Below the pieces are notes generated by a model. The model had not been told where the DNA came from. It made no database searches and saw only the letters and a list, made by a program, of their open reading frames with translations. From Roseivirga sp. (lineage in GTDB: Bacteria > Bacteroidota > Bacteroidia > Cytophagales > Cyclobacteriaceae), in the NCBI GenBank assembly GCA_021404565.1, contig JAAWWF010000005.1, positions 248,001 to 312,000 of the forward strand: 64,000 nt of DNA, given 5' to 3'. Each line of letters begins with the position of its first letter. Positions within the stretch are counted from its first letter, which is position 1. A program made the position numbers and the translations under genes. Of the stretch, positions 7,746 to 8,202 are shown piece after piece.

Positions 7746-7819
7746 GGGGGATTAGCTCAGCTGGCTAGAGCGCTACACTGGCAGTGTAGAGGTCACCGGT
7801 TCGACTCCGGTATTCTCCA
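7746..7819 (+). tRNA. tRNA-Ala (anticodon GGC)
   Basis: All four arms fold: acceptor GGGGGAT/ATTCTCC with the alanine identity pair G3-U70, D-stem GCTC/GAGC, anticodon stem CTACA/TGTAG with loop CTGGCAG, and T-arm ACCGG/CCGGT with TTCGACT. The anticodon GGC reads GCC. 74 nt; CCA is not encoded. Its 3' half and terminator are repeated exactly 346 bp downstream. Confidence 0.95.
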
Positions 7820-7856
7820 CTAATTGAAAGGTCAGCAAATGCTGGCCTTTTTTGTT
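7790..7856 (+). repeat. 67-bp direct repeat, copy 1 (tRNA 3' half plus terminator)
   Basis: It is identical over 67 bp to 8136-8202. It runs from the tRNA variable loop through the T-arm, acceptor end and terminator, and stops one base before the GIY-YIG start codon. The two copies bracket the nuclease gene. Confidence 0.95.
7827..7853 (+). terminator. Terminator of tRNA-Ala
   Basis: AAAGGTCAGCA pairs with TGCTGGCCTTT and is followed by a T tract. It ends three bases before the GIY-YIG ATG, so the nuclease needs read-through or its own promoter. Confidence 0.75.
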
Positions 7857-8111
7857 ATGCAAGAATTCTACGTTTACATACTCTTCTCCCATTCAAGAGA
7901 CAAATATTATGTAGGTAGTTGTGATGATCTGGAAAGACGGCTTGCAGATCACAATACAGGCAGATCTACCTATACCCGAACCGGTAAGCCCTGGGAATTG
8001 AAATATCATGAGATTTATCCTTCCAGGTCAGAAGCCCGGCAACGGGAGAATGAGATTAAGAAGAAGAAAAGTCGAAAATATATTGAATACCTGATTAGCT
8101 CAGTTGGCTAG
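7857..8111 (+). CDS. Small GIY-YIG endonuclease-like protein
   Basis: 84 residues. The GIY-YIG fold motifs are present: VYIL (GIY position), YYVGS (YIG position), the conserved Arg in ERRLADHN, and Glu in RENEIKKKKSRK. I chose the ATG at 7857; an upstream in-frame start at 7824 would read through the tRNA terminator. The C-terminus LISSVG and the TAG stop are encoded by the D-arm of the tRNA-like copy (stop at 8109-8111). Stand-alone proteins of this size are often called UPF0213/YhbQ-like; activity is unproven. Flanked by 67-bp direct repeats of tRNA sequence. Confidence 0.85.
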   Translation: MQEFYVYILFSHSRDKYYVGSCDDLERRLADHNTGRSTYTRTGKPWELKYHEIYPSRSEARQRENEIKKKKSRKYIEYLISSVG

Positions 8112-8165
8112 AGTGTCCCGAGGTTGCACTCGGGAAGGTCACCGGTTCGACTCCGGTATTCTCCA
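8089..8165 (+). pseudogene. Degenerate tRNA-Ala-like sequence
   Basis: D-arm, T-arm and 3' acceptor strand match the tRNA-Ala at 7746. The 5' acceptor strand (ACCTGAT) no longer pairs with ATTCTCC beyond the last three positions, and the anticodon arm is three nucleotides longer: TCCCGAG and CTCGGGA form a 7-bp stem around GTTGCA. It is therefore unlikely to be a working tRNA. Confidence 0.75.
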
Positions 8166-8202
8166 CTAATTGAAAGGTCAGCAAATGCTGGCCTTTTTTG
8201 TT
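8136..8202 (+). repeat. 67-bp direct repeat, copy 2
   Basis: Exact copy of 7790-7856, covering the 3' half of the tRNA-like sequence and its terminator hairpin (8173-8199). Confidence 0.95.
8173..8199 (+). terminator. Terminator after GIY-YIG / tRNA-like copy
   Basis: Identical to the terminator at 7827-7853: 11-bp stem followed by T's. It would end the GIY-YIG transcript. Confidence 0.7.

Follow-up and report, generated by a model that had tools for sequence, protein, structure and literature searches.

A probable family of one-gene GIY-YIG elements homing into and restoring tRNA genes of Bacteroidota

Mobile DNA frequently targets the essential tRNA genes, which it enters by means of integrases or introns. 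Integrative elements with tyrosine integrases use tRNA genes as insertion sites and provide the tRNA part that would otherwise be missing, the displaced part marking the far end of the element. Some of the group I introns found in tRNA anticodon loops carry GIY-YIG homing genes, and these introns splice from the RNA. Short palindromes, such as REP and Rickettsia palindromic elements, are dispersed over genomes. The nearest known system to the one described here appears to be SegB of phages T4 and T6, a free-standing GIY-YIG homing endonuclease encoded in the phage tRNA cluster (PMC13096335), the insertion site of which is treated for T4 in an earlier paper (PMC2988022). According to the parts of the newer account that were consulted, segB genes lie beside tRNA genes of many isotypes and form tandem tRNA-nuclease arrays, the nuclease gene shares, at its 3′ end, a short homology with the 5′ end of the tRNA, and homologues also occur in phages infecting Bacteroidota (PMC13096335).

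The locus investigated here, from the chromosome of a Roseivirga sp., and its relatives resemble SegB in that a GIY-YIG gene lies beside tRNA genes of many isotypes and forms tandem arrays. They resemble the tyrosine-integrase elements in their tRNA target, in the supply of the missing part and in the displaced part at the far end; whereas those elements have an integrase, kilobases of cargo and defined att sites, a single GIY-YIG gene is found here, with either part of the tRNA. Unlike the tRNAs split by group I introns, the tRNA is whole in the DNA and the locus had no Rfam intron match. A palindrome of the type TCCCGA/TCGGGA, likewise short and dispersed, recalls the REP and Rickettsia elements and differs in its places, namely loops of tRNA relics, RNase P RNA and terminator-like hairpins. 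Compared by description, SegB differs in its location in a phage tRNA cluster, whereas the genes studied here are on bacterial chromosomes and encode about 80 residues in which only the GIY-YIG domain was found; a rebuilt tRNA with a relic on the opposite side is seen here and is absent from the consulted parts of the SegB descriptions (PMC13096335, PMC2988022). No description of tRNA-invading GIY-YIG genes on bacterial chromosomes was apparent among the listed papers of the mostly open literature, as judged by titles and the openings of abstracts.

The window, i.e. the whole stretch of 64,000 nucleotides that was analysed, contained a single tRNA called by ARAGORN, an intact tRNA-Ala(GGC) gene at positions 7746-7820 (Rfam tRNA, 63.2 bits). 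All features of the locus are on the plus strand. The tRNA is followed by an intrinsic-terminator-like hairpin with a T run (7826-7853, from folding) and, directly after this proximal terminator, by a gene for an 84-residue GIY-YIG nuclease (7857-8111, from its open reading frame, Pfam and alignment), with its ATG at 7857 and its stop codon at 8109-8111. A tRNA relic at 8093-8166, recognized from repeats, Rfam and folding, comprises a D-arm, a palindrome replacing the anticodon arm, a T-arm and the 3′ end. A repeat search revealed a 67-bp direct repeat without mismatch, the first copy (7790-7856) covering the tRNA from the variable loop onwards and the terminator, the second (8136-8202) including a terminator hairpin at about 8172-8199; the 279 bases between the copies hold the GIY-YIG gene only and no integrase gene. 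A second repeat links tRNA positions 5-25 (7750-7770) with 8093-8113 at 95% identity, and the stop codon and last five whole codons of the nuclease gene lie within this D-arm copy. The relic matched the Rfam tRNA model at 8094-8159 with 30.8 bits (gathering threshold 29) from model position 6 to 65 only, and the 5′ acceptor strand is therefore absent. Folding gave a 7-bp stem with a 6-nt loop, TCCCGAG-GTTGCA-CTCGGGA, at the place of the anticodon arm (8116-8135); the pattern TCCCGAN{2,14}TCGGGA was counted once in the window against 0.01 expected occurrences. A sequence-only reading of this DNA had described the tRNA-Ala(GGC), the 84-residue gene and a tRNA-like copy without acceptor pairing, the exact 67-bp repeat around the gene, and the 7-bp stem with its 6-nt loop. 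ARAGORN, the reading frame, Pfam, Rfam, the repeat search and the fold all agreed with this description; it had also placed the nuclease end in the D-arm, correctly for the stop and the last codons, of which there are five rather than six.

Within the genome of origin, the only matches to the tRNA-Ala(GGC) gene besides itself at E≤0.001 were the relic and a tRNA-Ile/tRNA-Ala(TGC) pair. The intact tRNA at 7746-7820 would be a hybrid, its 5′ part native and its 3′ part derived from the element. Directly after the second repeat copy, at about 8204-8338, lies another GIY-YIG gene, decayed and with an in-frame stop (tblastn, 40% identity to residues 1-45), which is read as an older insertion. The adjoining locus (8669-12673) is an open frame of 1334 residues with repeated VGIGT-like motifs.

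The 84-residue protein matched the Pfam GIY-YIG domain PF01541 with 64.3 bits (cut-off 22.6; E=1.3e-17). In an alignment of 44 rows, Y18, R28, H32, E64, K68 and R73 were invariant and Y7 was present in at least 90%; Y7, Y18, R28 and E64 occupy what we take to be the catalytic columns of the domain, i.e. two Tyr, one Arg and one Glu. The nearest solved structures by sequence were PDB 1zg2 (E=2.7e-7) and 1ywl (E=6e-6) of the UPF0213 or single-domain GIY-YIG type, which share the domain and are of similar length. Homologues bore source names such as 'GIY-YIG nuclease family protein', 'putative endonuclease' and 'excinuclease ABC subunit C' among the 120 listed of 446 homologous proteins. A phage origin was considered and gained no support: the PHROGs families gave no match to the nuclease at E≤1e-3, and the close-relative scan found no relatives in viral contigs. 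Among Flavobacterium homologues dN/dS was about 0.1 (median 0.11 in the 49 usable of 91 pairs, pairs with saturated synonymous sites being left out), and the codon comparison thus shows purifying selection on the nuclease genes.

In the 8.57-Mb genome of origin, the sole other matches to the nuclease at E≤0.01, besides the remnant, lay 36-48 nt past tRNA-Leu(CAG) and tRNA-Leu(GAG). Family matches were present at E≤1e-3 in at least 38 of 59 relatives and at E≤1e-8 in at least 107 of 247 genomes of the phylum. When species genomes were scanned, 51 loci with a family gene were obtained; these were combined with three from the own genome and 29 from relatives into a set of 83 (L074 is identical in sequence to L005). 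A tRNA gene was located upstream on the same strand, at a distance of 4-197 nt, in 60 of the 83; when 14 of the remaining 23 were inspected, nine had an intact tRNA just downstream and the others showed tRNA-like pieces by eye. Sixty further stretches were added non-randomly, the first 20 being picked mostly for clustered copies, and an HMM built from 68 sequences gave 237 readings in 172 loci, of which unique readings were counted. With a family cut-off of an HMM score of at least 58, chosen after inspection of the data, 130 of 188 copies had an intact tRNA (in one case tmRNA) within 250 nt on the same strand, 111 of them upstream and 19 downstream only. Another 21 had one within 2.5 kb, mostly in arrays, 27 had a T-arm-like motif only, and 10 (three at contig ends) were without any tRNA trace. 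The T-arm motif is too loose, matching 216 of 2187 background stretches, and the linkage is therefore based on intact tRNAs. In a contrast set scoring 40-58, which contains a few truncated family members (e.g. L052, L054 and L143) and is not a pure sister subfamily, only two of 25 copies had a tRNA within 250 nt. The tRNA association of homologues elsewhere, which the sequence-only reading had mentioned for other Bacteroidota, was thus found for most copies of what is apparently an undescribed, large family in many Bacteroidota and a few other phyla. A weak family copy (60.5 bits) was also seen after a gene for tmRNA, an RNA with a tRNA-like end (L212:618); no second copy was found there.

Each intact tRNA was then matched to the opposite flank of the gene, by which two mirror forms were assigned. 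The intact tRNA was upstream at 126 copies and downstream at 26, and a second tRNA copy was detected at 102 and 25 of these, respectively; at 24 of the 126 upstream-form copies this matching detected none. The relic of the upstream form is the 3′ part of the tRNA, reaching position 70 or beyond in 85 of 91 listed (of 102), and that of the downstream form is the 5′ part, starting at positions 0-4 in 20 of 25. The nuclease stop codon lies inside the relic at 56 of 126 upstream-form copies, most often at position 23, and inside the intact tRNA (positions 10-24) at 12 of 26 downstream-form copies. Conserved TAG triplets of the D-arm are thus used as nuclease stops; C-termini ending in tRNA sequence are thus frequent in the family, although not invariable as had been proposed for a check. 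Complementary parts of this kind would be expected after insertion inside a tRNA gene if the element supplied the missing 3′ or 5′ part. The earlier view can be refined accordingly in its geometry: the relic may be on either side, and both a tRNA part and a terminator seem to belong to the element itself. At one locus (L093) the gene is flanked by two tRNA-Pro genes, both callable by ARAGORN, the second with a palindrome in the D-loop region.

Genes for tRNAs of twelve amino-acid types were occupied. A tree was calculated from 115 proteins and 84 columns, in which many forks were unresolved. Amino-acid labels required 32 changes on this tree against a shuffled mean of 75.4, with none of 200 shuffles as low, and labels for the two forms required 9 against 21; both contrasts are inflated by closely related rows, and four tRNA labels had been altered beforehand, one of them doubtfully (L151, Val to Lys). 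Nuclease relatedness thus tracks tRNA type across distant hosts. A tRNA-Ala clade of 24 members (support 98) joins the genus of the window with Saprospiraceae, Maribacter and Flavobacterium, and a mixed, Asp-rich group of five (support 86) joins MAGs of Cloacimonadota, Fidelibacterota and Nitrospirota, in which contamination is possible, with Bacteroidota.

Sites with and without the gene were compared in two genera. In most genomes of the window's genus a tRNA-Ala(GGC) lies near an NlpC/P60 gene within the fetched stretch. The nuclease gene was present at this site in five genomes (G000, G001, G013, G014 and G017), while in seven (G002, G003, G005, G007, G009, G010 and G011) the tRNA and the sequence after it were present and no gene was detected within the stretch, and three (G004, G006 and G008) had a relic and no gene. 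Two of the gene-less relics (L102 of G006 and L103 of G004) have, by eye, two terminator types in swapped order relative to the occupied L074 (G014), which suggests recombination within arrays. The second genus (g47) was taken as Flavobacterium because its nuclease genes group among named Flavobacterium in the tree, and was sampled by its 30 best loci and by 20 more stretches adjoining a conserved gene for a hydratase. The tRNA-Ala was present in 48 of these 50; 15 of the 48 had the nuclease (two of them broken) and 33 had none, so that occupied and empty alleles of one site exist. Empty tRNA-Ala sites, which the sequence-only reading had proposed to look for in related genomes, were thus found in both genera.

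At 13 of the 14 Flavobacterium loci with both terminators, the distal terminator was nearer than the proximal one to the best empty-site match. The margin exceeded 0.1 in nine loci, was 0.07 in L249 and at most 0.03 in L228, L254 and L266; L237 was slightly opposite. Mean identity to empty sites was 0.487 for the proximal and 0.527 for the distal terminator, a small average contrast. As the distal terminator is closer to empty sites, it would be mostly native and the proximal one would mostly have arrived with the gene, and these data support, short of proof, a foreign origin of the proximal terminators. A simple duplication of the target site, i.e. of the tRNA 3′ part and terminator, suits the window and was rejected on account of the differing terminators at most Flavobacterium loci. 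A resistant tRNA allele borne by the element was also considered and rejected, the anticodon-stem allele GTACTTGCC...GGGG being present at six of 15 occupied and nine of 33 empty loci. Upstream of the intact tRNA, gene-less relics bearing the palindrome occurred at nine of 15 occupied and four of 33 empty loci (L223 being unreadable upstream); in L221, L226 and L228 two or three such relics stand in tandem directly upstream of the intact tRNA-Ala.

Arrays of copies mostly had periods of 300-650 bp. In arrays with the tRNA upstream (n=25), the copy nearest the tRNA outscored the farthest by more than 10 bits in 10 and was outscored by it in one, and the two were level in 14; the three arrays with the tRNA downstream (nearest copy better in none, worse in one by the sum of fragment scores, level in two) were uninformative. 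The order in the window, a live gene with a decayed gene beyond the relic, fits decay away from the tRNA. In L072 (G013) the terminator of the decayed downstream copy is 92% identical over 38 nt to that before the live gene of L071 (G001), against 73% over 30 nt between the proximal terminators of L072 and L071. When L071 and L072 were compared over 107-116 nt including the gene start, the contrast was weaker, 0.84 for the old and 0.81 for the new copy. We read this as entry of a newer element between the tRNA and an older element in L072. Repeated invasion of sites is thereby supported, although not proved, and the earlier view may be extended in that sites seem to have been invaded more than once. 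Third-position distances of the nuclease and hydratase genes were uncorrelated (rho 0.12, p 0.55; 28 non-independent pairs of eight loci); in L219 the nuclease was nearest to those of L240 and L238 and the hydratase to those of L225, L228 and L224. These discordant distances would fit horizontal exchange, as would the members in MAGs of other phyla if these are not contaminants.

An extra palindrome with any stem of at least 6 was observed in the relic region of 84 of 111 copies with the tRNA upstream and 13 of 19 with it downstream, and the TCCCGA/TCGGGA type in 51 of 111, two of 19 and 23 of 57 other copies, all being raw counts without shuffle control. The sequence-only reading had regarded the hairpin as a structure that evolved at this locus, perhaps for recognition or processing; its presence in 51 of 111 comparable relics, and elsewhere in genomes, speaks against this. 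Among 30 palindrome places inspected, one, that of the window, was within 400 nt of a family gene, and seven had an ARAGORN tRNA within 400 nt; these seven were among the 15 places from the window's genome, and three of them are in one tRNA array. The palindrome count in this genome, 17, was barely higher than the 13 of a reversed-pattern control. Over 59 genomes, palindrome density was 2.88 per Mb with the gene and 0.48 without it (Spearman 0.66, kinship uncontrolled); the density of a control pattern also differed (0.95 vs 0.50 per Mb, p 0.03), and outside the window's family the palindrome difference was not significant (p 0.10). An RNase P RNA with two internal TCCCGA/TCGGGA palindromes was seen in L280:1469-1901 (G032; Rfam, 249 bits), and in L272, L282, L062 and L065 a palindrome lies, by eye, within apparent terminator hairpins, extending the stem. 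A tRNA array of the own genome (L057 and L058; G000 contig C7, about 54.0-54.4 kb) contains relics with palindromes in the D-, anticodon- and T-loops, some of them retaining acceptor pairing by eye, and no family gene was found within the stretch. We regard the palindrome as a dispersed repeat in its own right that comes to lie in loops and may be helped by the nuclease.

The locus and its relatives are best explained by a family of one-gene mobile elements of about 0.3-0.4 kb which home into tRNA genes and restore them, a reading to which we assign a probability of roughly 0.7. In the form seen in the window, the element would consist of a tRNA 3′ part, a terminator, the GIY-YIG gene, a D-arm stub and the palindrome, and its target would have been a tRNA-Ala(GGC) gene. 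Joined to the 3′ part and terminator of the element, the native 5′ part would give the intact upstream tRNA, and the displaced native 3′ part with its terminator the downstream relic; the mirror form would bring a tRNA 5′ part, leaving the intact tRNA downstream. The nuclease presumably cuts the tRNA gene of an element-free cell, and repair of the break from an element-bearing copy, by way of tRNA homology on both sides, would copy the element in, restoring an intact tRNA at one flank and leaving a relic at the opposite flank. Neither of the two outcomes by which the sequence-only reading would have been refuted was seen; gene-less sites and tRNA-linked homologues support the insertion with rebuilding of the target that it claimed, while the mobile step itself, i.e. 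cutting and transfer by the nuclease, is inferred. It counts against homing that the intact tRNA retains the whole tRNA sequence and hence a target for self-cutting, and a similar question is posed for the phage genome by the authors of the SegB study, in the parts consulted (PMC13096335). Low expression behind the terminator, in the upstream form, or repair could protect the restored tRNA.

The identical terminators of the window would be explained if the older and the newer element had the same terminator; a local duplication would give them too. Tandem duplication of the tRNA and of a gene inherited beside it, by unequal recombination or nuclease-driven amplification and without insertion into an empty site, would also account for the tandem arrays and has a parallel in SegB, which according to the consulted parts of its description amplifies the tRNA-segB segment in tandem (PMC13096335). 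It is nevertheless an unlikely origin of the family, as gene-less orthologous sites exist, proximal and distal terminators in Flavobacterium are mostly unlike, nuclease distances are uncorrelated with those of the neighbouring gene, and the nucleases of distant hosts group by tRNA type; as a cause of array growth, duplication may well have acted. A gene serving the cell, which encodes a nuclease for tRNA or tRNA-gene DNA with a part in dosage, processing or defence and is kept beside the tRNA because it is useful, would be in agreement with purifying selection and with the wide distribution in the phylum. This we consider more improbable still, given the patchy presence at orthologous sites, the decayed copies, decay that is directed away from the tRNA far more often than towards it, and the many unrelated tRNA types.

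Restoration of the tRNA also recalls the use of att sites, and the locus might have been left by a larger integrative element that targeted tRNA genes by means of an ordinary integrase. The GIY-YIG gene is, however, all that lies between the repeats, and the same kind of short unit recurs at other family loci inspected, which makes such a scar very improbable. Least credible appears an origin as the remains of a group I intron and its homing endonuclease, once seated in a tRNA anticodon loop: GIY-YIG homing nucleases are known to accompany tRNA group I introns, and the group I intron endonuclease model matched the nuclease weakly (22.2 bits, below its cutoff of 56.05), but the tRNA is uninterrupted and no intron family of Rfam was found at E≤0.1 in positions 7600-8500 of the window.

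If the reading as a one-gene mobile element is true, bacterial chromosomes would harbour a minimal homing system that is open to testing, seems to enter many tRNA types and rebuilds its target. A further, rather speculative view is that these elements form a new class of bacterial mobile element, ranking among the smallest that could be self-sufficient, in which a single nuclease of about 80 residues recognizes tRNA genes, perhaps by the folded tRNA shape extruded in DNA and not by sequence; the element would insert inside these genes and make the tRNA whole again with one half or the other. Dispersed palindromes that settle in hairpin loops would then enter the damaged copies, nuclease and palindromes perhaps being parts of one hairpin-targeting system. 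The family could account for many tRNA pseudogenes of Bacteroidota and could give a role to the genes that bear the source names cited above. It bears on the duplication and decay of tRNA genes, and on how a selfish nuclease may live in an essential gene.
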